IMG/VR virus record: IMGVR_UViG_3300043331_000999
Span: 1 to 44,753 of that record
Length of the DNA: 44,753 nucleotides
Strand: one strand, 5' to 3'
Source: a virus
The notes under the pieces are model-generated. The model saw nothing but the letters and a program-made list of their open reading frames with translations. It ran no database searches and was not told the DNA's origin. A program made the position numbers and the translations under genes. Shown one piece after another: positions 10,834 to 44,671 of this stretch (position 1 is the first letter of the stretch; each line of letters starts with the position of its first letter).

Positions 10834-10997
10834 TCTCAGGTTTTCTCAGGGTACCCATGGCACTCACCGCAAAGCAACGCGCATTCGTGGCCGCCTACTG
10901 CGCGACGTGGAACGCATCAGAGGCAGCGCGCAGGGCCGGCTACCGCGGCAAGCGCCCCGATCAGGCGGGCTACGACTACCTGAGAAAACCTGAGATC
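10832..10997. repeat. Perfect 19-bp inverted repeat spanning the TerS start
   Basis: GATCTCAGGTTTTCTCAGG (10832-10850) and its exact reverse complement (10979-10997) lie 128 bases apart. The left arm ends seven bases before the TerS start codon and the right arm is within the TerS gene at about codons 41-47. A packaging initiation (pac) site is often in or near the TerS gene, so this is the best candidate site. Confidence 0.85.
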
Positions 10998-11399
10998 GCC
11001 GCCGAGATCGAGCGCCGCATCACGGAGATTATGCCAGCAGGCGAGGTCATCAGCCGCCTGGCCGCTCGCGCCCGTGCCACGATCGCCGACGTGCTGGCCC
11101 TCACGACCGCCGACAATGCGGCGAGCTGGCGGCTCGATCTCGTCAAGGCGCAGGCAACTGGCGCGATCCACCAGATACGTAAGATCAAGAGCGGCAAGTA
11201 CGGCGACGAGGTCGAGGTGTATGATGGGCTGCCGGCGCTGGAGCTGCTGGGGAAGCGACTCAAGCTTTTTGGCGACGATACCACGCTGAAACATATCGAC
11301 CTCTCCAAGCTGACGCCGGAGCAATTGCAGCGCCTATCTGACGGAGACGACCTGATTGCTATCCTCCTCGACACAATTACAACTCCGGGCGCGAGCTGA
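10857..11399 (+). CDS. terS: Terminase small subunit
   Basis: A 180-residue DNA-recognition subunit of the packaging motor. An N-terminal HTH of the terminase small subunit type is visible (LTAKQRAFVAAYCATWNASEA then ARRAGY), followed by YDYLRKPEIAAEIERRI. The middle is coiled coil and the C-terminus (LDLSKLTPEQLQRL-like) probably contacts TerL. The ATG at 10857 has CAGGG upstream, and longer readings begin inside the preceding gene. The inverted repeat around its start is a likely own binding site. Its 3' end overlaps TerL by 44 bases. Confidence 0.88.
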   Translation: MALTAKQRAFVAAYCATWNASEAARRAGYRGKRPDQAGYDYLRKPEIAAEIERRITEIMPAGEVISRLAARARATIADVLALTTADNAASWRLDLVKAQATGAIHQIRKIKSGKYGDEVEVYDGLPALELLGKRLKLFGDDTTLKHIDLSKLTPEQLQRLSDGDDLIAILLDTITTPGAS

Positions 11400-14990: not shown

Positions 14991-16434
14991 CCACCTCTAC
15001 AATTTGGCGCTGACCATCCCCTGGCAGATCACTCCTGACGCGCTGGAGGCCATGCTCTCGCTGGCGATTGACGAACCGCTGCCTGAGGAGGAGTTCAAAC
15101 GCCGGATGCACGGCCCGCGCAGTCTCGCGCTTCGCGATGGGAAGCGCCGCGACGACAGAGGCACGATCCTGATGCGCGACAACGTGGCGATCCTCTCGGT
15201 CGACGGCCCGATCTACCGCTACGCGGATTACTTCACCCAGGTCTCAGGCGGCGTGACGACCGAGCAGCTGGGGCGCGACGTGCAGACCGCGCTCGACGAC
15301 AGCGCGGTCGGCGCGATCCTCTTCGTGGTCGACTCGCCCGGCGGAGAGGTGACCGGCATCGGCGAGCTGTCCAATGTCATCTACAACGCGCGGGGCGTGA
15401 AACCAATCGGGGCCTATATCGAGGGCTATGGCACAAGCGCAGCCTTCCGAATCGGCGGCGCGGCCGATGTGGTCATTGTCGATGCCGAGGCGATCGTCGG
15501 CTCGATCGGCACGATTATGGGCGTCGCTGATCCGACCAAGCGCCCCAGCTACCGGATCGACATCGTCTCGACGCAGTCGCCCAAGAAGCGGCCCGATGTG
15601 ACCACGCCGGAGGGCCGCGCTATCCTCCAGGCGACGGTCGACCGTCTGACCGATGTGTTCATCGCTGAGACCGCGCGCAACCGCAACATCTCGGTTGAGG
15701 CCATTCTGGCGATCGCGGGCGGCGTGCTTGTGGGCCAGGACGCGATCGACGCCGGCCTGGCTGACCGTTTGGGATCGGAGGAGGGCGCTATCCGCGATCT
15801 CGCACAGCGCGCGGCCAGGCGCAAGCTATTTCCCGTTCGGCTTCCGAACGGCGTTCCTATTACGGCACAGGAGGAAGGTATGAAGGTATCACAATTCATC
15901 GCCGGGATTTTCAAGGGGGCCGAGGATGCGGGGATCGAGCTGGAGCCGGACGTGGCAGCCGAGGCGCCGGCCCAGACCACGCGCGCCGAGAGCGCCACCG
16001 CAGCGGCCAACACGGAACCGACCCCCGAGCAGGCCGCCCAGTCGGCGCGCCTGGCCGAGCTGGAGAAAAAGCTCGCCGAGCAGCGTGAACAGGCGATCGC
16101 GAGTCAGGCCGCCGCCTTCGCGGTTCGAGCCGTGCGCGAGCGCCGCGCCTACCCCGCGGAGCACGCCTCGCTCATCGCGCTCTACGTCCAGGCCGCGCAA
16201 GACGACGACAGAGCGCCGATGAGCGAGGCGCAGAAGAGCCGCATCGCCCAGATCGAGGCATCTATCGCGGCGCGCCCCCAGCACAGCCTCTCAGCCGAGC
16301 TGATCGCCTCCTCAAGCGGCGGCGTGCTGGAAACGGGCGGCACGGGGCCGATGAGCGAGGAGCGGCGGCGTAGTCTGCTACAGGTGACGCCGCTCGGCCA
16401 GGCAGCAATCAGCAGGCGCGCCAAGAGCGCCTAA
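14983..16434 (+). CDS. Head maturation protease (S49/ClpP-like) with C-terminal scaffold
   Basis: A 484-residue protein in the style of lambda C. The S49 protease part (about 1-290) shows ILFVVDSPGGEVTGIGEL and GAYIEGYGTSAAFRIGG (the catalytic serine is expected within GTSAAF), then VGSIGTIMGVAD. From residue 300 on the sequence is alanine/glutamate-rich with a coiled coil (LAELEKKLAEQREQ), a scaffold. An internal in-frame start (15880) makes the scaffold alone. The ATG at 14983 overlaps the portal stop. The end is RRAKSA. Confidence 0.88.
   Translation: MSNHLYNLALTIPWQITPDALEAMLSLAIDEPLPEEEFKRRMHGPRSLALRDGKRRDDRGTILMRDNVAILSVDGPIYRYADYFTQVSGGVTTEQLGRDVQTALDDSAVGAILFVVDSPGGEVTGIGELSNVIYNARGVKPIGAYIEGYGTSAAFRIGGAADVVIVDAEAIVGSIGTIMGVADPTKRPSYRIDIVSTQSPKKRPDVTTPEGRAILQATVDRLTDVFIAETARNRNISVEAILAIAGGVLVGQDAIDAGLADRLGSEEGAIRDLAQRAARRKLFPVRLPNGVPITAQEEGMKVSQFIAGIFKGAEDAGIELEPDVAAEAPAQTTRAESATAAANTEPTPEQAAQSARLAELEKKLAEQREQAIASQAAAFAVRAVRERRAYPAEHASLIALYVQAAQDDDRAPMSEAQKSRIAQIEASIAARPQHSLSAELIASSSGGVLETGGTGPMSEERRRSLLQVTPLGQAAISRRAKSA
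15880..16434 (+). CDS. Internal in-frame scaffold protein (lambda Nu3 type)
   Basis: A 184-residue protein starting at an internal ATG with a perfect AGGAGGAAGG ribosome-binding site directly before it, in the frame of the protease. It begins MKVSQFIAGIFKGAEDAGI, then has an alanine-rich linker, a coiled coil and a conserved C-terminal helical end. Lambda C/Nu3 uses exactly this arrangement to make free scaffold in excess. The strength of the site makes dual expression likely. Confidence 0.75.
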   Translation: MKVSQFIAGIFKGAEDAGIELEPDVAAEAPAQTTRAESATAAANTEPTPEQAAQSARLAELEKKLAEQREQAIASQAAAFAVRAVRERRAYPAEHASLIALYVQAAQDDDRAPMSEAQKSRIAQIEASIAARPQHSLSAELIASSSGGVLETGGTGPMSEERRRSLLQVTPLGQAAISRRAKSA

Positions 16435-16492
16435 CGAGGAGCAGGCGCGAGAGGACGGGCGTGTGACGCCCACAAGCAAAGCGAGGACAGGT

Positions 16493-16906
16493 ATGCCCAC
16501 AACCCCAAGTCTCACCTTCACGGTCGCCAAGCTGGAGCCGGCCTACGCGCCGGAACTGGCGAAGACCGATGCGTTCAAGATCGGCGCCGGCGCCCACGTC
16601 GCCGGCGAAATCCTGGGCTTTGTCGCCGCGACCGGCGCGGTCGACACCTATGCGACGGGCAATTCGGACGGCACCGAGACCGCGGCCGTGATCGCCGTCT
16701 ACGACATGTACTCGGACGGCACGAACGTGAGCCTCACCGCTGACAGCGCGCTACTGCCGGGCGAGACGGCGACGACGGCGCCGTGCTATGTCATGGGGTT
16801 CTTTGACTGCGCAGACCTCACCGGGCTGGATGCGGGCGCAATCACCGACATGAAGGCGCGCCTGATTGGCGCCAATACCGTCTCCGGCGTGCTGGCGCTG
16901 TTCTAG
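16493..16906 (+). CDS. Head decoration protein (HDPD/lambda D-like)
   Basis: A 137-residue capsid decoration protein placed, as usual, between scaffold and major capsid genes. It shows a beta-rich pattern (HVAGEILGFVAATGAVDTYA, AAVIAVYDMYSDGTNVSLTA, TAPCYVMGFFDCADLTGLDA). Decoration trimers clamp the expanded capsid. The ATG at 16493 has GAGGACAGG before it. The upstream 58-base gap includes a small GGGCGT/ACGCCC hairpin that may adjust expression. Family call is by order and pattern. Confidence 0.8.
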   Translation: MPTTPSLTFTVAKLEPAYAPELAKTDAFKIGAGAHVAGEILGFVAATGAVDTYATGNSDGTETAAVIAVYDMYSDGTNVSLTADSALLPGETATTAPCYVMGFFDCADLTGLDAGAITDMKARLIGANTVSGVLALF

Positions 16907-16963
16907 CGCCCGTGATCTCGTTAGGCCGTCCGGACGAGGGCGGCATTCGTGTGAGGACAGACC

Positions 16964-17983
16964 ATGACTGTGTATCAATATCCGACCAACAGCGAGCTGC
17001 AGGAGATCGAGCGCGATTTGCTGCCGGTGCTGACGATGGACGACCCGATCTTCACTGTCATGCCGATGGTCGACGTCGACGCGGATCTCGTCGAGTGGGA
17101 CCAAGAGGATGACTACGTTGGGTTGCAGGCGATTCGCGGCATCGGCGGCCAGCCGGGCAACGTGGCCGCCACGGGCGCGAAACGCTACACCGCGCGGCCG
17201 GGCGTGTATGGCGAGTTCGCCACAATTGATGAGCAGGAGCTGACCAGCCGCGGGCGGCTGGGCGCCTACAATGTGCCTGCCAACATCACGGATCTGATCC
17301 GTGGGCGGCAGGATCAGCTCCTGCACCGCCGCATCAACCGGCTGCGCAAGATCGGCTGGGACGTGCTGCAAGGTACCTACAGCGTCGCCAACAACAACGG
17401 TGTGATTGCGACCGACACCTTCAGCGTGCAGACGTACAACGCCTCGACCTGGGGAACCCCCAGCACCGCCACGCCGCTCGCGGATTTCCGCGGCGCGCAG
17501 CTCCTCAGCCGCGGGCATAGCGTCTCATTCGGCGCCGGCGCGGAGGCGTTCACGAACCGCGCGACCGCCAACAATCTGCTCGCGAACACCAACGCCGCCG
17601 ATCTCGGCGGCAAGCGCACCAGCGGCCTGGCCAATGTCCTCTCCATGGCCGACGTGAACAATGTGCTGGGCGGCGAAGATCTGCCCATGATCCGCATCTG
17701 GGATGATGGCTACAAAGATGACAGCGGGAACTTTCAGCTCTTCATCCCGGCCAATGTCGTGATTATTGTCGGGCGGCGGAGTGGCGGCGCGCGGATCGCC
17801 GACTTCGCCCAGACGCGCAACGCGAATAATCCCAACAGCGCGCCGGGGCCGTACACGTTCGTGGATGACCGCACGCAGGGCGATAACAAGACTGTGCCAC
17901 CCCTGATCGCCGTGCATTCGGGGGTCAACGGCGGGCCACGCATCTATTTCCCGTCGGCGATCATCAACATGGACGTGAGCTAG
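16964..17983 (+). CDS. Major capsid protein (phage_cap_E family)
   Basis: A 339-residue capsid shell protein, HK97 fold of the lambda E type. Conserved-looking segments include RGRQDQLLHRRINRLRKIGWDVL, SVNGV-like FADFRGAQLL, TSGLANVLSMADVNNVLGG, and RIWDDGYKDDSGNFQLFIPANVVI near the C-terminal third. Length matches the family. GTGAGGAC precedes the ATG. A perfect hairpin follows the stop at 18005, which may cut transcript levels after the most abundant product. Confidence 0.9.
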   Translation: MTVYQYPTNSELQEIERDLLPVLTMDDPIFTVMPMVDVDADLVEWDQEDDYVGLQAIRGIGGQPGNVAATGAKRYTARPGVYGEFATIDEQELTSRGRLGAYNVPANITDLIRGRQDQLLHRRINRLRKIGWDVLQGTYSVANNNGVIATDTFSVQTYNASTWGTPSTATPLADFRGAQLLSRGHSVSFGAGAEAFTNRATANNLLANTNAADLGGKRTSGLANVLSMADVNNVLGGEDLPMIRIWDDGYKDDSGNFQLFIPANVVIIVGRRSGGARIADFAQTRNANNPNSAPGPYTFVDDRTQGDNKTVPPLIAVHSGVNGGPRIYFPSAIINMDVS

Positions 17984-18004
17984 TCCAGCCGAGTCGCTCT
18001 GTGC

Positions 18005-18027
18005 GGGCGGCGAACCACTCGCCGCCC
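18005..18027 (+). terminator. Hairpin after the major capsid gene
   Basis: GGGCGGCG (18005-18012) pairs perfectly with CGCCGCCC (18020-18027) around a 7-base loop. No U-tract follows. It probably attenuates transcription or stabilises the upstream mRNA end. Confidence 0.5.
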
Positions 18028-18046
18028 CCATGTGTGGGGAGATCGT

Positions 18047-18281
18047 ATGCCGAACCTACCCAAGCCCAAAGTTGCCGAGCAGGAGCCAGAGGTGGCGCCG
18101 CCTGAGGGCCAGGAGCCTGAGGCGACACCCCTGATCGCCAGCGCGCGATAGCGCGCTGGCCGCGCTGACTGGAAGCGGCGGGGTCGCGCGTTTCGCTGGC
18201 GATGTGCTGACCGCCGAGGAGATCGGCAATCGGGAACGGATCGACAAGCTGCTCGCAAAGGGCGCGATCGAGGCTGTATGA
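18047..18281 (+). CDS. Small head/neck protein encoded in two frames (frameshift)
   Basis: The frame from ATG 18047 runs for 34 residues (a P/E-rich start, MPNLPKPKVAEQEPEVAPPE) and stops at TAG 18149-18151. A second frame, open from 18135, continues as ALAALTGSGGVARFAGDVL then TAEEIGNRERIDKLLAKGAIEAV and ends at 18281. The two make a natural 77-79 residue protein when joined. The change happens in an alternating GC run (18141-18147). A ribosome paused on GCG at 18143-18145 can slip back two bases and re-pair perfectly with GCG at 18141-18143, giving ASA-RDSALAAL. Small proteins ending IDKLLAKGAIE-like are common just after major capsid genes. Either a -2 programmed shift or a lost GC unit (or a sequencing error) explains it. 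Confidence 0.6.
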
Positions 18282-18694
18282 CTGAGGACGAGTACATCGC
18301 GCTCATTATCACCGAGATCGGCGGCGATACGAGTGATGGGTTGCTCGCGGCCAACCTCCCAACCTACTGGGCGCTACATGCGAGTGTGGCCGATCTGACT
18401 CTGCGCGCGCTCCTTACCAAGATCGACGGGATTCGGCTGCTGCTCGGCCAGACCTGGCGGCAGGTCAATTTCAAGGCGCTCGACGGCGCGACGGTCAATC
18501 TCTCGGATATGTTCGAGCATCTCACGAAACTGCTCGAGCTCGCCGAAGGCCAGGCCGCAGCGGCCACGAGCGCGGCGGGCGGGATCGCCATTGGGGCGCT
18601 CACAACCACCGCGCCGATCATGCGCGATAGGTCGAGCCAGCCCAACCCGAACAGCCGTCGCATCCGGGGCGATCCACTCAGGAGACCGCGATGA
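18278..18694 (+). CDS. Probable head-tail adaptor protein
   Basis: A 138-residue protein. The N-terminal half is helical (DEYIALIITEIGGDTSDG, LPTYWALHASVADLTLRALLTKIDGIRLLLGQTW) and the rest is alanine-rich with a basic tail. Helix-rich adaptors just after the capsid gene bind the portal ring. The ATG overlaps the preceding stop (ATGA). It is followed immediately by the glycosyltransferase island, which separates it from the other neck genes. Function inferred mainly from order. Confidence 0.65.
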   Translation: MTEDEYIALIITEIGGDTSDGLLAANLPTYWALHASVADLTLRALLTKIDGIRLLLGQTWRQVNFKALDGATVNLSDMFEHLTKLLELAEGQAAAATSAAGGIAIGALTTTAPIMRDRSSQPNPNSRRIRGDPLRRPR

Positions 18695-19875
18695 GACTCC
18701 TGCTTGCGGGCGACTTCACATGTCACAGCGGCTTCGCGCGCGTGAACGAGGCGCTGGCCGCCCATCTGCATGCTCTCGGCTGGGATATCGCCGTGCTGGC
18801 GGTCAACTACGACGGCGACTATCACCCGCTTGGGCAGCAGTACCGTCTGTGGCCAGCCGTGAATGCGGGCGATGTGATGGGCGTCCGCCGCCTCGCCGAT
18901 CTCATCGCCCGCGAGCGGCCCGACGTGGTGCTGATCGTGAACGATCCCTGGATCGTCAGGCGCTACCTGGCCAGCCTCGCCACAGTGGACGATGCCGGGC
19001 CGCCGATCGTCGCCTACATGCCCGTGGACGCGACCGCACTCCGGCGGCGCGACGTGGAGCCGCTAAACGGCCTCGCGCACGCCATCGCCTATACCCAGTT
19101 CGGGTTGACGGAGCTGCGCCGCTCCGGCCTCGATATCGACGCGAGCGTGATTGGGCACGGGATCGACACCGATGTGTTCTTTCCCGTAGACCAGGTGGAG
19201 GCGAGAAACGCCGCGGGTATGGGGATGGACATCTTCGCCGTGCTGATTTTCGACCGCAACCAGGCGCGCAAGCGGCTCGACATCGCCTTCGACGCCTTCG
19301 CCCGCTTCGCCAAAAACAAGCCGACGACGGTCAAACTGGTCTACCACGGGAGTTTAGCCGACGAGGCGCGCACGGGTTGGGCGATCGAGGACATGGCCGC
19401 CGACCTCGGCATCGCCGACCGCCTGATTCTCACGGCGCGCGATATTCAGCCGCTGCGCGGGGTCGCCACCGATCAGCTGAAGGTGATCTACAGCATGTGC
19501 GATGTCAAGCTCTCGACCTCCAGCGGGGAGGGCTGGGGATTGACCACGATGGAGGCCATGGCCTGCGGTCTGCCGAACGTGCTGCCGAACAACTCCGCGC
19601 TGGCCGAGTGGGCGGCCGATGCGGCACTCATGGTCGATTGTCCGATCCCGGTGCGCCACGCCGGCGGCATCAACACCGTGGGCAGTGTACCCGACGCTGA
19701 AACGGCGGCCGAGGCATTGGAGCAGCTCTACCATCATGCTGAGTGGTGTGGTGAGTACGCCGCGCGCGGCCTGACTCTGGTCGATCAGGAACGCTTCCGC
19801 TGGCCCATCATCGCGCGCCAGTTCGACCATGTGCTGCGCCAGGCGGCGGCGCAGCGTGCGGAGGTGGCTGCATGA
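18691..19875 (+). CDS. Glycosyltransferase family 4-like
   Basis: A 394-residue GT-B fold glycosyltransferase. The N-terminal Rossmann domain starts MRLLLAGDFTCHSGFARVNEA, and the donor-binding C-terminal domain has LVYHGSLADEARTGW, ADRLILTARDI and SGEGWGLTTMEAMACGLPN with the E280-x7-E288 pair diagnostic of GT4 retaining enzymes. It would transfer a sugar from a nucleotide donor. Its ATG overlaps the adaptor stop, placing it inside the virion assembly operon rather than in a separate transcript. The acceptor may be a virion protein or a host surface glycan. Confidence 0.88.
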   Translation: MRLLLAGDFTCHSGFARVNEALAAHLHALGWDIAVLAVNYDGDYHPLGQQYRLWPAVNAGDVMGVRRLADLIARERPDVVLIVNDPWIVRRYLASLATVDDAGPPIVAYMPVDATALRRRDVEPLNGLAHAIAYTQFGLTELRRSGLDIDASVIGHGIDTDVFFPVDQVEARNAAGMGMDIFAVLIFDRNQARKRLDIAFDAFARFAKNKPTTVKLVYHGSLADEARTGWAIEDMAADLGIADRLILTARDIQPLRGVATDQLKVIYSMCDVKLSTSSGEGWGLTTMEAMACGLPNVLPNNSALAEWAADAALMVDCPIPVRHAGGINTVGSVPDAETAAEALEQLYHHAEWCGEYAARGLTLVDQERFRWPIIARQFDHVLRQAAAQRAEVAA

Positions 19876-20471
19876 GCATCATCAGCACGCCGCACCAGGA
19901 GCGGGATACGCTGTACTTTCATAGTACCCCGACGCCCGTGCCGATCTTCCAACGAGAGTGGGAGTTCGCCCAGCTCCTCAGGATTTACGAGGCCAGAGCG
20001 CCCGGCGCCGCGCTGGAGATCGGAACGTTTCACGGCGGGACGCTCTATCACTGGCTCAGGCTCGCGCGGCCAAATACCATTGTCGTGAGTGTCGATAGCT
20101 ACGCTGCCGGCGTCGATAACCGCCACCGCTATGCGCACTGGACACCCGCCGGCGTGACGCTGCATACGCTTGCGGGGAACAGCCGCGACCCATCCATCAT
20201 CGCGCAGGTGCGCGCGCTGGGTCCATTCGACTTCGTCTTTATCGACGCCGGGCACCTGGAGCACGAGGTACAGGCCGACTGGGAACATTTCGGCGCGATG
20301 TGCGTGTCGGGCGGCGTCGTCGCGCTGCACGACATTATGCCGGCGGCGGTCGATTGGATCGAGGTCGATCGCGTGTGGGAGCGCATTCAGCACCAGGGCT
20401 ATATGACCCAGGAGCTTGTTTGCGCGCCCGATCTCGACTGGGGAGGCATTGGATGCGTCTTCATGCGCTAA
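19872..20471 (+). CDS. SAM-dependent methyltransferase (Methyltransf_24 / CmcI-like)
   Basis: A 199-residue class I methyltransferase. Motif I is EIGTFHGGT (49-57), and FIDAGHLEHEVQADWEHFGA with GGVVALHDI follows at about 123-150, as in the Methyltransf_24/cephalosporin hydroxylase-like family. These often methylate sugars or peptides in glycan pathways. The ATG overlaps the GT4 stop. The enzyme makes sense together with the flanking glycosyltransferases as a cap or methylated sugar step. The substrate is not predictable. Confidence 0.85.
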   Translation: MSIISTPHQERDTLYFHSTPTPVPIFQREWEFAQLLRIYEARAPGAALEIGTFHGGTLYHWLRLARPNTIVVSVDSYAAGVDNRHRYAHWTPAGVTLHTLAGNSRDPSIIAQVRALGPFDFVFIDAGHLEHEVQADWEHFGAMCVSGGVVALHDIMPAAVDWIEVDRVWERIQHQGYMTQELVCAPDLDWGGIGCVFMR

Positions 20472-20977
20472 CCGCGATCACGCGGTGTGAGAATCTGCCA
20501 CACCTGGCGCTGTCACTCGATGCGGCCGTGCGCTCTGGTGTGGATCTGACCTGGCACTGCCGCTTCGACCCCGACCGAAAACACGTCGGCGGGCAAGCGC
20601 TCAAAAATCAGATGCTCGATCATATCACTGATGGCTGGGTCTACATCCTCGACGATGATAATCTGCTGCACCCGGACCTAATGGGCACGCTTGCGGACTA
20701 TCTGACCGACCGAGTCGATGTGGCCCTCGTGGTCTGCGCGCAGCAGCACCCGAGCGGCTTCATCAGACGGCCGCACCGCCGCATGCTCCGGCAAACCCAT
20801 GTGGACGCCGGGCAGGTGCTGTTTCGGCGCGAGGCGCTGGGCGATCTGCGTATCCCGCTGCATTACTGCGGCGACGGCGAAATGATCGAACGATTTGCCA
20901 ATCAACTGCACGAACACGAGATTATCTATATCAAAGAAGCTGTAACCTACTATAACTGGCTGCGGAGCGACCCATGA
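20453..20977 (+). CDS. Short GT-A type glycosyltransferase
   Basis: A 174-residue protein, shorter than usual for family 2. It has TAITRCENLPHLALSLDAAV, ALKNQMLDHITDGWVYILDDDN (the DDD motif for metal-nucleotide binding) and HYCGDGEMIERF. The ATG at 20453 overlaps the methyltransferase by 19 bases; longer readings to 20300 lie within that gene. The small size and missing C-terminal region suggest a minimal catalytic domain. Confidence 0.78.
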   Translation: MRLHALTAITRCENLPHLALSLDAAVRSGVDLTWHCRFDPDRKHVGGQALKNQMLDHITDGWVYILDDDNLLHPDLMGTLADYLTDRVDVALVVCAQQHPSGFIRRPHRRMLRQTHVDAGQVLFRREALGDLRIPLHYCGDGEMIERFANQLHEHEIIYIKEAVTYYNWLRSDP

Positions 20978-21171
20978 GAGAAGATGATGAGCATATGACC
21001 GTCGATCCGCTGATGCTGCACTTGCGGCTGCCGGCGACGTGGTATGAGAAGGCGCTGACACCAGAGAGCACTCTCGAGCTTGAGAAAATCTTGTTTCTGA
21101 TTCTGGCGATGCTCGATTGCGGTGTGAGCCTCTATGAAATTCAGTTGCGCATCACGAAGGGCGACGAATGA
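20974..21171 (+). CDS. Small protein in the glycosylation island
   Basis: A 65-residue protein between two glycosyltransferase genes and overlapping both by 4 bases. MTVDPLMLHLRLPATWYEKAL is followed by helices (STLELEKILFLILAMLDCGV, LYEIQLRITKGDE). No domain recognised. Its position suggests an accessory or chaperone for the adjacent enzymes, but this is inference only. Confidence 0.65.
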   Translation: MREDDEHMTVDPLMLHLRLPATWYEKALTPESTLELEKILFLILAMLDCGVSLYEIQLRITKGDE

Positions 21172-21827
21172 TCACACTCGGCATACCCTCATTCAATCGC
21201 TTCGATCTGCTCGTGCGCTGCATCGATAGTGCGCTGGCCTCTCGTGTCGCGCCCGATGTAATCTACGTGGTCGATAACTCGGGCCATCAGTACCCGGCAA
21301 AATGGCAGGATCGGTATGCGGGGCGCGTGCTCGTCCATGTGGCGCCAAGCAACTATGGCGTGGCGAAGAGCTGGAATATACTCATAAGCATTGCACCGGG
21401 CGAAGACATTATCCTCTCGAATGATGATATTGCCTTCGCTCCCGACACGATCCAGCTGCTGCTGGCTGAGGCTGAGCGGAATAGGCGCGCGGGCATCGTG
21501 AGCGCGATCGAAGGCCAACGCTTCGCCCTCTTCTGGCTGAACCGTACCGCCTATGAGGAGGTCGGGCCGTTTGACGAGCAATTTTACCCGGCCTATTTCG
21601 AGGACAACGACTATCACCGGCGGCTGACGCTGGCCCACTGGGAAAGCCCGATTGCGTTTTCAGCCGTCGCGCACGAGACCAGCGCGACCTACAAGGCGAA
21701 AGACCAAGCGGCGCAATCTCAGCATCACCAGGACTTTCGGAGATGCCGGGAACTGTACATCCGCAAATGGGGCGGGCTGCCCGGCGAAGAGATCTACACG
21801 ACGCCCTACGGAGAAAACCGTGTTTGA
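21168..21827 (+). CDS. Glycosyltransferase family 2
   Basis: A 219-residue GT-A enzyme. It opens with the family 2 core (LGIPSFNRFDLLVRCIDSAL, IYVVDNSG), has the metal-binding NDDI at about 86 (IILSNDDIAFAP) and later GPFDEQFYPAYFEDNDYHRRL. Such enzymes add sugars from nucleotide donors. The gene completes a block of four sugar-modifying enzymes. The next gene starts at GTG 21820 overlapping its stop, so the island is translationally coupled to the neck genes. Confidence 0.88.
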   Translation: MITLGIPSFNRFDLLVRCIDSALASRVAPDVIYVVDNSGHQYPAKWQDRYAGRVLVHVAPSNYGVAKSWNILISIAPGEDIILSNDDIAFAPDTIQLLLAEAERNRRAGIVSAIEGQRFALFWLNRTAYEEVGPFDEQFYPAYFEDNDYHRRLTLAHWESPIAFSAVAHETSATYKAKDQAAQSQHHQDFRRCRELYIRKWGGLPGEEIYTTPYGENRV

Positions 21828-22236
21828 TCTTAGTGCCGCCCAAATCGAACAGATGCGTGATGCGGCGAAGGACGCCAACATTGCCGCCGCGCGCGCGTTC
21901 GGCTTCGGCGGCGAGGTCTGGACGGTCGCACGGCCGGAGGGTGCGGGCATTGCGGCGAAAACGCTGACCGCGCAGGGAACGACCGAGCTGTTGGCGTTTC
22001 GGCAGCGGCCAGGCCAGCAGGGGGCGGCGGGCGGCGGCACGCCGGTCCTTGCTGACATCTGGCGCTATATCCAGCTCAGCCCGGCGTCAGGCGAGGCGCT
22101 CGCGGTCGGCGATGTCATCGTGAGCGAAGCAGGTGACGCCTATGTGTTCGCGATCGCCAACGCCGAGCCGTGGTACGAATACGTCCGCGGCGACCTGGAG
22201 CGCGTGCGCGGCCCGATCGAGATCGCGGGGCTGTGA
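21820..22236 (+). CDS. Probable head-tail connector/stopper protein
   Basis: A 138-residue protein from GTG at 21820, with GGAG six bases upstream; it overlaps the glycosyltransferase stop. The sequence is beta-rich (VWTVARPEGAGIAAKTLTA, TELLAFRQRPGQ, LAVGDVIVSEAGDAYVFAIAN), like stopper or FII-type neck proteins. In a long-tailed phage this place (after adaptor, before HK97 gp10-like) is held by the stopper that closes the head. Identification is mostly from gene order. Confidence 0.68.
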   Translation: MFDLSAAQIEQMRDAAKDANIAAARAFGFGGEVWTVARPEGAGIAAKTLTAQGTTELLAFRQRPGQQGAAGGGTPVLADIWRYIQLSPASGEALAVGDVIVSEAGDAYVFAIANAEPWYEYVRGDLERVRGPIEIAGL

Positions 22237-22253
22237 TGCCAGGTGAAGATCAG

Positions 22254-22697
22254 ATGATCGCCAATCTCAGACGCCTCATGGCGAACACACGCGCACAGAT
22301 CCGGCCCGGCCTCGAGCTGGGCGCGGCCGTCATGCAGGCCGATATGGTCGCCACCACCGCCTATCAGGGCATGTCAGGGGCGACCCGCGTGTCATCGATC
22401 GCCTACGTCGCCGACGAGCACAACACTGGCGCCTCGGAGATCCAGGCCGCCTACAATGCGGCGGCCGGCAGATTGCAGGGCTTCACGGGGCATGATGGCA
22501 AACCCTCCCTGGCCTCAGCGCCGGGGCCGGAGCCACAGGCGTCAGCGATCGTCGCGACCGTGCCGACTGACTATATTCTCGATCTGGAGCTGGAGAACGG
22601 CGGCGAGAAGGCGTTTCTGGCGGACGCGGTGCTGCAGAACGCGCCCGAGGCGTTTCAGTTGCTCGTGCAGGCGCTGCGCGGTGGGTGGCGGCTGTGA
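22254..22697 (+). CDS. HK97 gp10-like neck/tail protein
   Basis: A 147-residue protein with helical beginning (IANLRRLMANTRAQIRPGLE LG) and a mixed end (YILDLELENGGEKAFLADAVLQNA, FQLLVQALRGG). This matches the length and order of HK97 gp10-type proteins between stopper and tail terminator. The start at 22254 has AGGTGAAG upstream; the ATG at 22236, overlapping the previous stop, is the alternative. It overlaps the next gene by 4 bases at GTGA. Confidence 0.65.
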   Translation: MIANLRRLMANTRAQIRPGLELGAAVMQADMVATTAYQGMSGATRVSSIAYVADEHNTGASEIQAAYNAAAGRLQGFTGHDGKPSLASAPGPEPQASAIVATVPTDYILDLELENGGEKAFLADAVLQNAPEAFQLLVQALRGGWRL

Positions 22698-23131
22698 TCG
22701 ACCTCTACGCATTGACCGATGCGGTGTTCGAGCGCTTGAAAAGCGATGCCGAAGGCGCGGCCGTGCGTACTGCGCTGGGGGATGGGGCCACGTCGGTGCT
22801 GCTCGTCGAGGATCTGCGCCTAGAGGCCCAATTGGGCGCGCAGCAGCACCCCGCGCGGCCGATGCTCGCGCTCCGGCGCGGCGCGGCGCCGACGGTCGAC
22901 CGGGTGATCAACCGCCCGACCTACACCTGGTTTCTCTATGATGACATCCCGGTCGGCTACGGGCGGATCGAGGCGCTCATTCCGCTCGTCGCGGCGGCCT
23001 ACGCCGAAGGGCTGCTGAGTGTCCCCACCGTGGGGGTGGACGATATCACGGTGAGCGCGCTCGCCCAGACGCGCGACGACCGGCTGAAGTATCTGCTCTG
23101 TCCTATCAGCGTCGTGATTGGCGCGATTTAA
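22694..23131 (+). CDS. Probable tail terminator protein
   Basis: A 145-residue protein. Its core segments (IDLYALTDAVFERLKSDAEGAAVR, VLLVEDLRLEAQLG, TYTWFLYDDIPVGYGRIEALIPLVAAAYAEGLL, KYLLCPISVVIGAI) follow the mixed alpha/beta order expected of gpU-like tail terminators. The GTG at 22694 overlaps the previous stop; a GTG at 22685 is equally possible. It ends 11 bases before a strong ribosome-binding site for the tail tube. Confidence 0.6.
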   Translation: MIDLYALTDAVFERLKSDAEGAAVRTALGDGATSVLLVEDLRLEAQLGAQQHPARPMLALRRGAAPTVDRVINRPTYTWFLYDDIPVGYGRIEALIPLVAAAYAEGLLSVPTVGVDDITVSALAQTRDDRLKYLLCPISVVIGAI

Positions 23132-23142
23132 GGAGGAACCTC

Positions 23143-23715
23143 ATGTCCGACATTACCGCACAGGGACCGGCGTTTGGCTTGGCGGTGGCGCGCGTGCTGA
23201 TCGTGGAGGCCGACACGATCGTCAAGATACCACTGTACTATCCGCGCGTGAGCGCCTTCAGCCCACAGGTCACGACCCTCTCGTTCGAGGGTCAGGATAC
23301 CAGCCAGACCGTGGATGTCCTCACCCGCGTGGATATCGCACTCACGTGCGACAAGCGCAATCTGCCGTCGATCCAGCGCATCTTCGCGAAAACGCGGCTC
23401 GACGCGCCGGGGTCGGGCGAGGCGGAGGGGCTGTGGATGGGCGATGAGACCGAGGTTGCCGGCGTCACCTGCGGGCTGGAACTCGAGGCGACCTTCAAGG
23501 ATGAGAGCCAGTCACCCGCCGAGGTGACACGTGAGCGCCTGACCTTCCCCTACGGCCAGGTCAAGGCGGTGCAGCCGCAGCAGATGGAGTACCAGGCCAA
23601 GTGGGTAACGGTGCTGAATTTTAGCTTCCAGCGCACCGAGGTCGATATTTTGGGCGATCCACTCGCGAACGTCCCCGCCGGCGGCGCGGTCTACCGCGAC
23701 AGCATTCTGACGTAG
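23143..23715 (+). CDS. Major tail tube protein
   Basis: A 190-residue tube subunit. It is beta-rich (SFEGQDTSQTVDVLTRVDIALT, AGVTCGLELEATFKDESQS, KWVTVLNFSFQRTEVDILGD), as in the tail tube fold shared by siphophages and gpV. The AAGGAGG ribosome-binding site before the ATG is among the strongest in the window, fitting a highly expressed structural protein. The gene precedes the tail assembly chaperones. Confidence 0.82.
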   Translation: MSDITAQGPAFGLAVARVLIVEADTIVKIPLYYPRVSAFSPQVTTLSFEGQDTSQTVDVLTRVDIALTCDKRNLPSIQRIFAKTRLDAPGSGEAEGLWMGDETEVAGVTCGLELEATFKDESQSPAEVTRERLTFPYGQVKAVQPQQMEYQAKWVTVLNFSFQRTEVDILGDPLANVPAGGAVYRDSILT

Positions 23716-23722
23716 AGGAGCT

Positions 23723-24172
23723 ATGGCCAAGACAGACACCAAAAGTGCCGCGCCGACGAGCGCCGCCGAGTGGCGGCGCACACGGATCGAGGGCGAGCTG
23801 ATCCGACTGCCCGGCTCGGGCAACGTCGCGAGATTGCGACGGCCCAGCCTCACGGCGATGGCCGCTACAACCAATGGCGTGCCCAACCCGCTGTCCCATG
23901 AGGTCATGCGGCTGCTCGCATCGGCGCCGGCCGCGACCGAGGCAGAGCGCATCGAGAATGTCAAGCGCAACAGCCGCGGCATGGTCGAGGTGGCCGCGCT
24001 CTGCCTCGTCGAGCCGCGCCTCAGGCTCGTGGGCGATCCACTGGAGGGCGAGATCGCCCCGGAGGATCTCAGCGATTACGATCTATCGTTCCTGTACTAT
24101 ACTTGGGTGGAGGGTGCGGCCTCTGATGTCGCGCCCTTTCGTGTCGTCGCTGAGCGGTTGGCAGGAGACTGA
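23723..24172 (+). CDS. Tail assembly chaperone, frame-0 product (G-like)
   Basis: A 149-residue helical protein (RTRIEGELIRLPGSGNVARLR, LSHEVMRLLASAPAATEAER then IENVKRN) between tube and tape measure genes, where chaperones of this type bind the tape measure. It ends at TGA 24170. A downstream reading in the +1 (or -2) frame (24126-24380) looks like the T extension, so a frameshifted G-GT protein is expected. Function inferred from order and the overlapping T frame. Confidence 0.78.
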   Translation: MAKTDTKSAAPTSAAEWRRTRIEGELIRLPGSGNVARLRRPSLTAMAATTNGVPNPLSHEVMRLLASAPAATEAERIENVKRNSRGMVEVAALCLVEPRLRLVGDPLEGEIAPEDLSDYDLSFLYYTWVEGAASDVAPFRVVAERLAGD

Positions 24173-24380
24173 CGCGCTGGCGAGACGCTACGGCACGACG
24201 CCGGCCGCACTCCTGGGGGAAGCGGACCCCTACCGCGCCTACTGCGTCAACCAGGCGTGCGCGCTCGCAGGCCAGGCCCTGGAGACAGCGCCACATACCG
24301 ATGGCGAGAGCGGCGCGAATGACCCCTTCAGCCACATGATGCGGCAGTTAGGTCGAGGCGCACGAGGACGCCTGCTATGA
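24126..24380 (+). CDS. Tail assembly chaperone, frameshifted T-domain extension (GT-like)
   Basis: This frame overlaps the G gene and continues 208 bases past its stop (WQETDALARRYGTTPAALLGE, YRAYCVNQACALAGQALE, DPFSHMMRQLGRG). An internal ATG at 24126 exists but has no ribosome-binding site, so the main product is probably a G-GT fusion made by frameshifting near 24134-24140. The frame ends at 24380, overlapping the tape measure start. Confidence 0.72.
   Translation: MSRPFVSSLSGWQETDALARRYGTTPAALLGEADPYRAYCVNQACALAGQALETAPHTDGESGANDPFSHMMRQLGRGARGRLL
24134..24140 (+). other. Candidate +1 frameshift site (CCCTTTC)
   Basis: The frame-0 codons GCG CCC TTT CGT include CCC-TTT, and a +1 slip re-pairs CCC with CCT or TTT with TTC, each read by the same tRNA. 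A +1 shift here enters the downstream chaperone frame. A -2 shift would do the same but no repeated dinucleotide is available. Confidence 0.55.
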
Positions 24381-26863
24381 CTGAGGTGCTCGTCGGCCGC
24401 GCCTACGGCCTGATGGAGCTGCGGTATCAGCAGTTCACGCAGGGCGTCAGCGCGGTCGAACAACAGATCAATCGCCTGCGGCAGCTCACCGCCCGCCCGA
24501 TCGTGGCCCAGATTGGCGCGAGTGGCGCGAGTGGCGTGGGCGGCGCATCCGCCGCGCCCGCTCAGCTCGACGCCGCCCAGTCGCGCGCGGCCCTCAGCGC
24601 CCAGCGGCTCGCGACCGAGCAACAGCGCACCGCTCTCGCCGCGCAGCGCCTCTCGACCGAGGAGCGCCGCACCGCGACCGCGACCGCGCAGGCCGACGCC
24701 GCGCAGTCCAGGGCCAGCGCCTCAGCCCTTCGACTTGAGCAGGCGCAAACTCGCGCCAGCCGGGGTGGCAGTACGCTCGGGGGCGTGCTGCGCGCGATCC
24801 CGACCGCCGTCGGCGCGCTGGGCATCTCTCTGGGCGTGCAGCAGCTCGTCTCATTCGGCGTCGAGTCGGGGAAAAGCGCGATTGCGCTGCGTGAGACGCA
24901 GAACAGTCTCCGCGCGATTGCCCCCAGCGCGCACGCCTACGCGGAAGCCATCGCCACGGCCAAGCGGCAGCAGTTGCTCTTCGGTGGTTCGCTTCGAGAG
25001 AACATCGAAGGGCTGAGCGGGCTGACTATCACGGCCCGGCAGTCGGGCGCGAGTCTTCAGACCCTGGTCGATCTCAGTCAGCGTCTGAATGTTCTCTCCC
25101 CAGAGCAGGGCGTCGGCGGCGCACGCATCGCACTCTCAGAAGCCCTGTCCGGCAATATCAGCAGCCTGTCCAAGCGCTTTGAGATCCCCCGCTCAGCCCT
25201 CAAGGGCCTCTCCGACGAGTCCAAGTCGGTCGAGGAGCGGCTGGCGATCCTCGATGGGTTTTTGAACAAGGTTGGCGTGACATCCGCCGCGATCGCGGGT
25301 AAGGTCGATCAGGACGCGCTTGCCTTCCGCCGATTGAATGCCGAGCTGGAGACCACGCAGCTGCGCGCGGGCGATCAGCTGGCGACCGCGTTCAGCCGCA
25401 GTGCGACCGGGCTCGCGCGGCTGCTGGGGGTGATCAATCAGAACCCACAAGCAATCGCCGAACTCAAAGCACTCCTCAGCGGGCGCGGCGTTGTCACCCA
25501 GGCCGACCTGGACGCGGCCACGCGCGGTGTTGCGGCGCAGCAATCGCGGGATCTCCTGGGCGGCAGCCGCGGCGCTCCCGAAGTGAGCCGGCGGCTGGGC
25601 GGCGGCGAACAGTACGCGGCCGTTGTCAAGCAGTTGACTGATCTCAAGCTCGCCGGGGGTGACGCCGCCGACTCGGCCGAGCGGCTGACCCGGCAATTCC
25701 TCGACGGCCAGATCCCAGCCGATCAGTACCACACCCTGCTCCGGGCGATCAACGAGCGCGCGCGCGAGGGCGACGGCATTGAGGCGCAGCGCGCGCAGTC
25801 ACTTGCCCGATCGAGTGATGCGACCCGCGAGAGTGCGAACGCGCTCTCAGAGGAGACGCGTGAGAAGCTTGCCGACCAGGTCGCCACGGCGAAACTCAAC
25901 GAGGAGCAGCGCCAATTGGCCGCCGACAGTGCCCTGGCCGCGCAGGGGCTGCTGGGAGCGGGCGATCAGGCGCTCATCCTGGCCGAGAAATATGGCATCG
26001 CCGCATCGCAGGCGCAATTCCTGATTAATCAGCAGCAGCAACTCACCAACGCCGAGGGCCTCGCCGATCAGCGCGCCGGCGAGCGCACGGGCGGTCGGGT
26101 CAAAAGTGCCAAGGAGCTGCAAACCCAGTCCGACCTGGCCCGGCAGAAGGCCCAGCGCGACCGTGAGGAGGCGGCCCGTGTCGCGCAGGCGCAGACCGCG
26201 CTGGACCTCTCGCGCGCCCGCACCGCGAGCGAGCGGATCGCCATTCTCCGACGTGAGCAAGCCGCGACGACGGACCAGGCGGAAAAGCTGCGCATCCAGG
26301 CCCAGATCGAGGCCGAGCGCAACAGCGGCGCGCGGTCGCACACGAAGGAGCTGAACACGCAGCTCAGCCTGAACGAGCGCATTCGAGACAGCGTCGAAGC
26401 GCAGTACAAGGCGCGTCTTGATGCGCAGGAGCTTGCGATCCGTGACCGGATGGAGCGGCGCAAAGAGGACCAGGAGATTAGGCAGGCGCAGCGCATTCTG
26501 GCCTCAGGCCGGGCCAGCCAGGCATTCAAAGACGCCGCGGCCGACCGGCTTGCGCTGATTGCCGTCGAGCGCGAGCAGCGTGCGCAGGCCATCCGCGAGA
26601 AGCAGGCCACGGCCTCAGGCAGTCTCATCGGCGGGCGCATCTTCCAGAGCCAGCCAGGTATCAGTGGGGGCGGGGTGGGTGCTGGGACGCCCCCCACTGC
26701 GCCAGGGGCGCCAGGGGCGCCTCTCGCGCCTGGCGGGGGCCTCACGATCCAGTTCCTGGTCGACGGCAAGCTGATCGCCAACGCGATCATCCCCGACATC
26801 ATGAACGCGCAGCGGGCCAGTCTCGCGCGGGTGGACGCGGCCGGCGGGGGGCAGCAGGCATGA
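24377..26863 (+). CDS. Tape measure protein
   Basis: An 828-residue tail length ruler. It is dominated by helix and coiled coil, with long alanine/arginine/glutamine-rich repeats at 70-130 and 500-720, and a central hydrophobic patch (GALGISLGVQQLVSFGVESG at about 150-170, followed by a helix-rich phage TMP domain). The C-terminus has a proline/glycine linker (GTPPTAPGAPGAPLAPGG) and a predicted alpha/beta end. At about 1.5 angstrom per residue it predicts a tail near 120 nm. It overlaps the chaperone frame by 4 bases. Confidence 0.88.
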   Translation: MTEVLVGRAYGLMELRYQQFTQGVSAVEQQINRLRQLTARPIVAQIGASGASGVGGASAAPAQLDAAQSRAALSAQRLATEQQRTALAAQRLSTEERRTATATAQADAAQSRASASALRLEQAQTRASRGGSTLGGVLRAIPTAVGALGISLGVQQLVSFGVESGKSAIALRETQNSLRAIAPSAHAYAEAIATAKRQQLLFGGSLRENIEGLSGLTITARQSGASLQTLVDLSQRLNVLSPEQGVGGARIALSEALSGNISSLSKRFEIPRSALKGLSDESKSVEERLAILDGFLNKVGVTSAAIAGKVDQDALAFRRLNAELETTQLRAGDQLATAFSRSATGLARLLGVINQNPQAIAELKALLSGRGVVTQADLDAATRGVAAQQSRDLLGGSRGAPEVSRRLGGGEQYAAVVKQLTDLKLAGGDAADSAERLTRQFLDGQIPADQYHTLLRAINERAREGDGIEAQRAQSLARSSDATRESANALSEETREKLADQVATAKLNEEQRQLAADSALAAQGLLGAGDQALILAEKYGIAASQAQFLINQQQQLTNAEGLADQRAGERTGGRVKSAKELQTQSDLARQKAQRDREEAARVAQAQTALDLSRARTASERIAILRREQAATTDQAEKLRIQAQIEAERNSGARSHTKELNTQLSLNERIRDSVEAQYKARLDAQELAIRDRMERRKEDQEIRQAQRILASGRASQAFKDAAADRLALIAVEREQRAQAIREKQATASGSLIGGRIFQSQPGISGGGVGAGTPPTAPGAPGAPLAPGGGLTIQFLVDGKLIANAIIPDIMNAQRASLARVDAAGGGQQA

Positions 26864-32119: not shown

Positions 32120-33040
32120 ATGCCACACGAATCACTACTAAATCAGCGCTTTGGCCGATGGATAGTGATTGCATACGAAGGAATCTATCGTGTCAACGGG
32201 GAACACAAAGGGCATTTGTGTCGTTGCCGCTGTGATTGCGGCAACGAAAAAGTATTGCAGGTAGGTGTACTTCGTAGAGGATTAAGTAGAAGCTGTGGAT
32301 GTTTGCTGCGTGAAACGGTCGGTAAGTCGCGGCGCTTTGTTGGTAAGCGTTTTGGGCGGCTAACCGTTCTGAAGCGCACCGATCAAAAGCGCGGGGCCGC
32401 CTATCTTTACCAATGCCGGTGTGATTGTGGTAACGAAGTTATTACCCCTGGTGCGCCGCTTACCAGCAGCGCAACGCGAAGTTGTGGGTGCTTAAAACAG
32501 GATGCCGCGCAGCATCGTGTGCGCGACCTTACGGGGCTTCGCTTTCATCGTCTTGTGGTGCTGCGACAATCCGAAGAGCGAAAATCGAACAGAGTGACAT
32601 TTCTTTGTCTCTGTGACTGTGGGACAGAGATATTAGTAGCGGGCAATGCACTTGTTGAGGGTATTACTCAGAGTTGTGGTTGTTATCGGCGCGATCGTAG
32701 CGCACAACCCCATGGCGTAGCTGCTTTCAACAACGTGTACGGAGAATATAGAAGAGGTGCTCAGGGGCGTGGATTTACCTTTGATCTGACAGAGGATACA
32801 TTTCGTTCACTCACACAACAACCATGTCATTATTGCGGTGGACTTCCGAGTACAGTGTCGAAAAAAAGTCCGAGGGGTGATTTTATCTACAATGGCATCG
32901 ATCGTGTCGATAACACGCAAGGTTACACGCTCGCCAATTGTCTTCCGTGCTGTCAGCGTTGCAACGTCGCCAAAGGCACGCTGACCTATAACGATTTCAT
33001 CGCAATGGCCCGCGCCATTGCAGCGAGGCACCCCGAATGA
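32120..33040 (+). CDS. HNH endonuclease with three zinc-finger repeats (mobile)
   Basis: A 306-residue homing endonuclease of low GC content. Three repeats read RFGRLTVL-like, then CRCDCGNE, then SCGCL (residues about 10-60, 75-125, 140-190), giving the CxCDCG and SCGC zinc-knuckle array of this phage family. The HNH part is near the end (HYCGG, then IDRVDNTQGYTLANCLPCCQRCN). A strong AGAGGTG site precedes the ATG. It sits between the fibre gene and the next short gene, and its stop overlaps the next start. It is probably a later insertion, as the codon and base use differ from the surrounding genes. Confidence 0.9.
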   Translation: MPHESLLNQRFGRWIVIAYEGIYRVNGEHKGHLCRCRCDCGNEKVLQVGVLRRGLSRSCGCLLRETVGKSRRFVGKRFGRLTVLKRTDQKRGAAYLYQCRCDCGNEVITPGAPLTSSATRSCGCLKQDAAQHRVRDLTGLRFHRLVVLRQSEERKSNRVTFLCLCDCGTEILVAGNALVEGITQSCGCYRRDRSAQPHGVAAFNNVYGEYRRGAQGRGFTFDLTEDTFRSLTQQPCHYCGGLPSTVSKKSPRGDFIYNGIDRVDNTQGYTLANCLPCCQRCNVAKGTLTYNDFIAMARAIAARHPE

Positions 33041-43515: not shown

Positions 43516-44354
43516 AGCATCCTCATCTGCCGCGTCGCCGCGGCGTGTTCGTTGAGCCAGAGCACCTCTGTGCGGCTGTTGCCCTTTTCGGCGGCGGCCC
43601 GCCGCTCGACGCTGTGCCAATGAGTCAGGCGCGCGGTGTAGAGGTCGTTTCTGTAGCCAGAGAGCAGCACCGGGCCAGGGTGGACGCTGAGCACATCGAG
43701 CAGCTCGATGTGCTCAGCGTCCGTCATTTCGTGGCGGTAGAGCCGCTTGCGATGGCCCTCTGCCGTGTGGCGGACATAGGGCGGGTCGGCATAGATCAGC
43801 GTGTCGGGCGTGGCATAACGCTGAATAATCTCGCTCGCTGGCCGGCACTCGATCTCGGCGTCTTTGAGGACTGCCACAACCGCCGCCAGTCGCTCGGGGA
43901 GCGACTGCCACACCTCGTAGGTACCACCGAGCTGCCGTCCCGTCCGCTTGTGGCCCTTGTGCCGCCAGCCGTTGCGGGTGCAGATCGTCGTCCCATGGGC
44001 CTGCCATGTGGCGACGAGGAAGCGGCGCGAATCCTCGACCATCTCGCCCGTTTCGATCAATGTGCCAGATGGCCCAGTGACCGTCATGTACTCGGCACGC
44101 GACCAGGGTGTGAGCGTGACGGCGCGGATCAGCTCTTCTGCGCGCTCGCGGAGGCACCGAAACAGCAAATTGATGTATTGGTCCTGATCGTTCAGGACGA
44201 GGTGCTCGGGGCGGTAGGGGAGCGTCAATGCGAATGCCGCGCTGCCGCAGTAGGGCTCCACCACCCGCAGGCAGCGCGGGGCGTGGGCGTGGAGCCAGGG
44301 CGCCAGCCGCCACTTCGCGCCGGGGTATTTGAGGATCGGTTTGGCAGCAATCAT
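43512..44354 (-). CDS. DNA adenine methylase (D12 class, Dam-like)
   Basis: A 280-residue DNA adenine-N6 methyltransferase. KYPGAKWRL at 9-17 and VEPYCGSAAF at 32-41 bind SAM; DPPY at 190-193 is the catalytic motif, with the expected order for the D12 class. It could protect phage DNA from restriction or change regulation; the target sequence is not predictable. I preferred ATG 44354 (CAGGACT upstream) over GTG 44387, which would overlap the upstream stop, because the domain begins at the chosen start. It overlaps the ParB gene by 4 bases. Confidence 0.88.
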   Translation of the reverse strand: MIAAKPILKYPGAKWRLAPWLHAHAPRCLRVVEPYCGSAAFALTLPYRPEHLVLNDQDQYINLLFRCLRERAEELIRAVTLTPWSRAEYMTVTGPSGTLIETGEMVEDSRRFLVATWQAHGTTICTRNGWRHKGHKRTGRQLGGTYEVWQSLPERLAAVVAVLKDAEIECRPASEIIQRYATPDTLIYADPPYVRHTAEGHRKRLYRHEMTDAEHIELLDVLSVHPGPVLLSGYRNDLYTARLTHWHSVERRAAAEKGNSRTEVLWLNEHAAATRQMRML

Positions 44355-44383
44355 CTCAAGTCCTGTCTCGGCCGCCCGGCCGC

Positions 44384-44671
44384 TCACTCCGGCTGGGCCG
44401 TTTCGTTGCCTTCGAGTTGCGCGATCACGCGCATCCGGTAAGCGATCTGGCCCGCGATGCGCGCGGCGTGGCGGCGCGAGCGGCTGGCCTCCGCCTCGGC
44501 GAGCTGGCGCCTGAGGCGGGGCAGCTGCCGCTTGAACGTCTCGACCTTCGCCCGCTGCCGATCGATCTTTTCATCAGCGGTCATCCGTCTCCGCTCGGCC
44601 GCGGCCGCCTCCTCGCCCAGCAGCTCAGCCAGGCGCGCCCAGTGCTTGTCATAGGCGGATCGATGCGTCAT
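44384..44671 (-). CDS. Coiled-coil protein
   Basis: A 95-residue protein rich in arginine, glutamate and alanine (LGEEAAAAERRRMTADEKID then RQRAKVETFKRQLPRLRRQL). It is almost entirely coiled coil. GAGTGAGG lies before the ATG. It is the first complete gene of the leftward operon in the window. Function unknown. Confidence 0.68.
   Translation of the reverse strand: MTHRSAYDKHWARLAELLGEEAAAAERRRMTADEKIDRQRAKVETFKRQLPRLRRQLAEAEASRSRRHAARIAGQIAYRMRVIAQLEGNETAQPE

Follow-up and report, generated by a model that had tools for sequence, protein, structure and literature searches.

A putative virion-glycosylation island between neck genes of an environmental phage, with relatives in the head-neck clusters of phages with unrelated capsids

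Glycosylated phage particles have been reported experimentally in few phages, mainly mycobacteriophages. In those of cluster O, an O-methyltransferase, two glycosyltransferases and a putative N-acetylglucosaminyltransferase lie between the portal and protease genes, and modification of the capsid by them was proposed (PMC4351075). According to PMC11600133, citing Freeman 2023, the cluster O enzymes modify capsid and tail-tube proteins, a glycosylation reported for Corndog, and PMC12363180, also citing Freeman 2023, gives Che8, Corndog and Myrna as phages whose proteins are glycosylated; glycans lower the recognition of mycobacteriophages by antibodies (PMC12363180). Here we analyse a sugar island of an uncultured phage, in the IMG/VR virus record IMGVR_UViG_3300043331_000999, whose 44,753 nucleotides were taken whole and are called the window below. 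Five open reading frames, confirmed at 18691-21827 on the + strand, lie between the genes at the head-tail adaptor and head-tail stopper positions. Our preferred reading, to which we give a probability of about 0.6, is that the island is a virion-glycosylation cassette within the late structural operon, and its placement between neck genes suggests that the phage coats its own particle with methylated sugars. The general form is known from the cluster O mycobacteriophages, and the window is one case of a broader pattern. The island comprises:

18691-19875, + strand: GT4-family glycosyltransferase (GT-B fold), first gene of the island, 394 amino acids
19872-20471, + strand: methyltransferase dependent on S-adenosylmethionine (SAM), sugar O-methyltransferase type, 199 amino acids
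20453-20977, + strand: short GT-A (GT2-like) glycosyltransferase with a DDD motif, 174 amino acids
20974-21171, + strand: small protein without assigned function, 65 amino acids
21168-21827, + strand: GT2-family glycosyltransferase with NDD and EDND motifs, 219 amino acids

The likeness to cluster O (genomes compared: Catdawg, Firecracker and FoulBall) is one of architecture and not of sequence, and these phages, with their experimentally reported virion glycan, serve as a precedent by analogy for the window. As in the window, the cluster O mycobacteriophages Corndog, Catdawg and Firecracker carry a block of methyltransferase and glycosyltransferase genes inside the structural operon, and in Catdawg the methyltransferase and three glycosyltransferases are coupled by overlaps of 4 and 8 bases, in the same style. 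The cluster O block differs in its insertion point, between portal and protease, and in having no GT4; its methyltransferase is TylF-like, and its glycosyltransferases are GT2-like, GT25-like or without family.

The first enzyme of the island belongs to the GT4 glycosyltransferases, as it passes the curated cut-off of Pfam Glycos_transf_1 (PF00534, E=1.9e-11) and keeps the E-x7-E motif intact; it also matches the glycosyltransferase family phrog_2170 of PHROGs (E=1.5e-34). Its closest solved relative, B736L of chlorovirus NY-2A (E=1.6e-16), is likewise a viral enzyme, with GDP-mannose as its best ligand, and has been discussed as part of virion glycan synthesis (PMC4691112), although it comes from a virus of a eukaryotic alga, where its acceptor and role are putative. 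The methyltransferase matches PF13578 (Methyltransf_24; E=6.1e-13, 50 bits against a cut-off of 26.3) as well as PF04989 (rhamnosyl O-methyltransferase/CmcI, RMNT_CmcI; E=6.5e-6, 26.5 bits against 23.2), domain scores that place it in the sugar O-methyltransferase families with a predicted specificity for sugar. Its best solved match is weak (6g7d, E=7e-5) and is presumably a mycobacterial mannoside methyltransferase; a homolog (L008:4501-5163) sits in the island between the capsid and gp6 genes of another phage. Both the GT2 and the short GT-A clear the PF00535 cut-off (E=1.1e-14 and E=7.3e-6) and show acidic metal-binding motifs in their translations (NDD and DDD), in keeping with GT2-family membership, and the former also matches phrog_29879 (E=7.9e-37) and has relatives inside the head clusters of S-CBS4 and phiPsal1. 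A search for phage relatives of the GT-A found none, and its weak match to SunS (E=0.57) was discarded. The 65-residue protein matched no Pfam or PHROGs family.

From the adaptor-position gene through to the next neck gene, the reading frames overlap by 4, 4, 19, 4, 4 and 8 bases, and ribosome-binding-like sequences precede several island starts. A first-pass annotation of this DNA had all the genes on the late strand, as they are, and overlapping by 4-8 bases, which is true of every junction but that between the methyltransferase and the GT-A, where the overlap is 19 bases and the GT-A begins at an ATG with a good Shine-Dalgarno sequence. A promoter and terminator scan of 16400-24400 returned sites no more often than in shuffled sequence, and the sole promoter-like site lies on the opposite strand. 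Because the genes are coupled and on one strand, with no promoter- or terminator-like site above chance, the simplest reading is that the island belongs to the late structural transcript.

Relatives of the window's capsid reveal the state of the junction. Single-sequence searches with the major capsid protein in viral and genome collections found nothing, nor did a two-sequence alignment against genomes. Capsid alignments found 14 and then 68 related IMG/VR loci, some of them near-duplicates, and 69 loci and the window were compared by iterated profiles; portal, protease, decoration-like and capsid genes are common to most of them. In the 28 other adaptor-bearing relatives that extend 600 bases or more downstream, the next gene (at least 100 residues) starts no more than 300 bases past the adaptor, overlapping it by 4 bases in 13 relatives and by one base in two, and it is never a glycosyltransferase of the island families (0/28). 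Since these relatives have an ordinary-sized gene after the adaptor, the island is an insertion at the adaptor/stopper junction and not normal spacing. The only relative with a GT4 right after the adaptor is L110, a 12.6-kilobase contig, and the two genes there overlap by the same 4 bases. Followed through related phages, as the first-pass annotation had proposed, the insertion point is thus filled in L110 and empty in 28; the accompanying expectation that neck genes are usually contiguous holds in this lineage, but other phages too have sugar genes within head-neck clusters. Elsewhere in the capsid lineage glycosyltransferases are rare, which favours the cassette reading: across whole records of the capsid relatives, many of them fragments, a GT2 domain occurs in 1/50 and a GT4 C-terminal domain in 0/50. 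The sole GT2-domain match lies upstream of the portal in L127, near locus position 1100. In L119, a 104-residue gene (10901-11215) stands between the adaptor and stopper positions, a smaller insertion near the window's site.

The GT4 has been in place for long. The capsid tree joins the window and L110 as sisters (support 100/99), as does the GT4 tree (100/98), and the identity of their GT4 proteins (57%) is similar to that of capsid (61%), portal (60%) and adaptor (67%). On this evidence the GT4 insertion is old and vertically inherited with the capsid genes. Fourfold-degenerate sites between the two are near random expectation, that is, near saturation, while 57% of amino acids are kept, so the GT4 is under purifying selection. 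An assembly chimera at the adaptor/GT4 junction of the window is unlikely because L110 shares the GT4 there. The island had been described as inserted or long-established, and with 28 empty relatives and one filled sister both terms apply; the finding is real and older than it first seemed. The composition of the GT4 (GC content 0.66) and of the methyltransferase (0.63) is that of the operon, where most neighbouring late genes range from 0.63 to 0.69, whereas the GT-A (0.59), the small gene (0.525, the lowest in the island) and the GT2 (0.59) are lower and fit the codon usage more poorly. From this lower GC and poorer fit we infer that these three genes joined later than the GT4 end, which is probably the oldest part of the island.

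Eighty-two IMG/VR loci were fetched by GT4 similarity alone, near-duplicates included, and classed by neighbours and local homology. The capsid family PF05065, tried as a marker in the GT4 records, matched only 1/49 and was replaced by local homology. PHROGs and Pfam confirmed Neck1, connector, major tail protein, head-tail adaptor, tape measure and DegT on sample members, and the remaining neighbours were labelled by homology to these samples. At 39 of the 82 loci, the GT4 family lies no more than 3 kilobases from recognised structural genes, in several phage groups with differing capsids and insertion points, namely ahead of or among the gp10, terminator and tube genes (as in L010 and L033), between the capsid and an adaptor of gp6 type (L008), and, in S-CBS4-like loci, between portal and protease. 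Eighteen loci remain after these and the 25 S-EIVl-like loci discussed below; L057, L065 and L084 share an S-CBS4-type order, and in L066 a protease/capsid-type gene is directly followed by a putative glycosyltransferase and then the GT4. In L010, L015, L030, L033 and L036, genes for a DegT aminotransferase and a hexapeptide-repeat protein, the latter likely an acyltransferase, lie upstream of the glycosyltransferases, with neck genes after them, and these phages may make their own amino sugar. The context groups form largely separate clades in the GT4 tree, so each site mostly has a GT4 line of its own, passed down within the phages that use it.

The GT4 family also stands inside the head-neck clusters of phages with unrelated capsids, S-CBS4, phiPsal1 and Mae-JY09, and is often accompanied there by a GT2, a methyltransferase or sugar-making genes. 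In the head cluster of Synechococcus phage S-CBS4, as in the window, a GT4 (36% identical), a GT2 of phrog_29879 (32% identical) and a SAM methyltransferase lie in a row, but the block sits between portal and protease, the capsid is another one and the methyltransferase is of Methyltransf_11/23. Pontimonas phage phiPsal1 similarly has its major capsid protein followed by GT4, methyltransferase, GT2 and then a gp6-type neck gene; it differs in its HK97-type capsid and in its methyltransferase, which is of another family and on the opposite strand, and its GT4 is only 28% identical over 59% of the query. This trio of GT4, GT2 and methyltransferase in the head clusters of both phages supports the cassette reading. 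The order in L008 is major capsid protein, decoration-like protein, an island (GT2-like, methyltransferase homologous to the window's, radical SAM, GT-B-like, GT4) and gp6-type adaptor; L019 and L020 are loci of this type truncated at the left. L008 differs from the window in its HK97-fold capsid (PF05065), its insertion before the adaptor instead of after it, and the extra radical SAM-like gene, which lies at L008 5127-5969 and has homologs in L020 and L039.

The junctions used by GT4-led cassettes thus include portal-protease, capsid-gp6, adaptor-stopper, before gp10 and terminator-tube, and the sugar-making partners in some of them are the DegT aminotransferase, the hexapeptide-repeat protein and radical SAM. 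We hold it about an even chance that GT4-led sugar cassettes repeatedly entered the head-neck operons of tailed phages with unrelated capsids at different junctions, in which case virion glycosylation would be widespread in the environment. No published description of GT4-led cassettes in unrelated phages was found in a literature search that was limited and hence gives weak evidence.

Under the cassette reading, the block would have been inserted between the adaptor and stopper genes in the ancestor of the window and L110 and retained since, and its enzymes would be made together with the head and neck proteins. Using host nucleotide sugars, the GT4, the GT2 and the short GT-A would build a short glycan on an abundant virion protein, for which we propose the capsid, the decoration-like or the tail-tube protein, and the methyltransferase would add an O-methyl group to one of its sugars. 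The enzyme activities, donor sugar, acceptor, order of transfer and benefit to the phage (shielding, stability or adsorption) are predictions of this scheme. The earlier suggestion that the island is tied to virion assembly finds indirect support in the shared strand, the coupling, the lack of a promoter- or terminator-like site of its own and of membrane segments, and the recurrence in head-neck clusters.

Several observations weigh against this reading. L110 shows only the first half of the island's first gene, since the contig ends 212 residues into the GT4. The GT4 family is not bound to virion genes, because 25 of the 82 loci, from S-EIVl-like phages, have the GT4 relative beside the primase and not beside head genes. 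Enzymes inside the structural operon are shared with cluster O but homology to the cluster O set was not detected: the methyltransferases gave BLASTP E=3.0, and similarity between the glycosyltransferases is marginal, with only 17 bits between the window GT2 and Catdawg gp35. Finally, an acceptor signature, sought in the capsid C-terminus and in the conservation of the decoration-like protein, was not found; both proteins are possible glycan acceptors. Between the window and L110 the decoration-like protein is 78% identical compared with 61% for the capsid, which at first looked unique among 852 pairs. This sign was dropped because, set against control pairs with capsid identity of 55-68%, the adaptor stood out just as much and the portal did so in part; the raised identity reflects a truly co-inherited pair as against mosaic pairs, and not an acceptor role. 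The capsid C-terminus, tried by analogy with mycobacteriophages, ends one residue later than in most relatives, which is too little. As a separate observation, the S-EIVl-like records (L044-L092) have the GT4 relative next to both the primase and an S-adenosylmethionine decarboxylase-like gene.

The alternative that survives best, though we consider it unlikely, is that the enzymes alter a host surface glycan late in infection or in the lysogen and so stop re-adsorption or superinfection. Surface polysaccharides are the target of many phage glycosyltransferases, the left end of the window carries a tyrosine integrase (50-838), and a lipid-linked sugar is a substrate that the island enzymes might in principle extend and methylate. 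However, the island is not a serotype-conversion (gtr-type) cassette: its Pfam and PHROGs matches include no flippase or membrane-anchored transferase family, and none of the five proteins has a transmembrane segment (maximum 19-residue hydropathy 1.72). Nor does it have a promoter-like site of its own, and its position in the structural operon implies late expression, when a change of the surface would protect little. The recurrence of the same GT4 family in head-neck clusters also argues for the virion as the target.

Less probable again is a neutral passenger block, tolerated through its coupling and harmless to assembly, with no virion role. The post-capsid interval does take cargo more widely, given the large inserts in two relatives without the sugar island, L093 (6796-8370, 524 amino acids) and L104 (9492-11555, 687 amino acids), and the GT-A, small protein and GT2 are of atypical composition. 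This fits poorly with a GT4 that is held at the same junction in L110 at 57% identity over near-saturated synonymous sites, with intact motifs, and with repeated independent placement in head-neck clusters. We rate slightly lower still the idea that the target is not the virion but a host protein or a small molecule, whether secreted or intracellular; the GT4, GT2 and methyltransferase families do have a broad substrate range, but the window proteins scanned include no biosynthetic partner genes, and recurrence in head-neck operons would go unexplained. Glycosylation of the phage DNA as a hypermodification against restriction is very improbable, for despite the precedent that phage glycosyltransferases can modify DNA (mentioned in PMC12619734, citing Pyle 2024) and a D12 adenine methyltransferase at the right end of the window (43512-44387), no base-hypermodification enzyme appears among the Pfam-scanned window proteins (part of the open reading frames of a record that may be incomplete), the genes lie among neck and not replication genes, and a sugar-type O-methyltransferase fits a glycan better.

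The genes that frame the cassette and those of the head are as follows:

16463-16906, + strand: decoration-like protein adjoining the capsid gene, conserved with the capsid across the lineage
16964-17983, + strand: major capsid protein, E family (PF03864, E=5.6e-9; phrog_29 major head protein)
18278-18694, + strand: left flank, conserved gene at the head-tail adaptor position, 138 amino acids, helical
21820-22236, + strand: right flank, gene at the head-tail stopper position, GTG start, 138 amino acids, named by position only

The names adaptor and stopper rest mainly on position. In 32 records of the lineage, window and L110 included, the adaptor-position gene keeps its place behind the capsid gene. 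Its product is modelled with four helices (pLDDT 85-93 over residues 21-60) and matched no named family, and fold searches with it gave no significant match. The product of 21820-22236 has no detectable relative and no detectable homology to the relatives' stoppers; its single-sequence model is weak (mean pLDDT 63), with an N-terminal helix and beta-strands, and a fold search gave no named or significant match. Upstream of the island run the small terminase (PF03592), the portal (PF06074), an SppA-like protease named from its L013 homolog, the decoration-like gene and the E-family capsid. The island is followed by short genes in the places of stopper, neck and terminator, and these by a putative tube and tape measure; Pfam and PHROGs scans gave no usable family match for these neck and tail genes, whose names are provisional, those of tube and tape measure being taken from position and size.

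Between capsid and adaptor, a small gene at 18047-18281 looks broken in two: an open frame of 34 codons begins at 18047 and meets its stop at 18151, while the C-terminal part, which is conserved, is read in a different frame as far as 18281. The matching stretch of L110 is open in one frame; a frameshift, an assembly error or recoding may account for the break. Further downstream, a gene at 32120-33040 differs in codon usage from the other genes of the operon, has a GC content of 0.51, carries a C-D-C-G-like motif repeated three times and looks recently acquired. The phage may be temperate, and its record may be incomplete.

If the GT4-led cassettes act alike, virion glycosylation would be common in environmental phages of other hosts, and mycobacteriophages would be no special case. 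In those hosts selection by antibodies cannot apply, which raises the question of whether the sugars keep the particle stable, act in adsorption, or conceal it from predators or surface defences. The junction is filled in some phages and empty in others, and the isolates S-CBS4, phiPsal1 and Mae-JY09 carry related cassettes, which makes this question directly testable.

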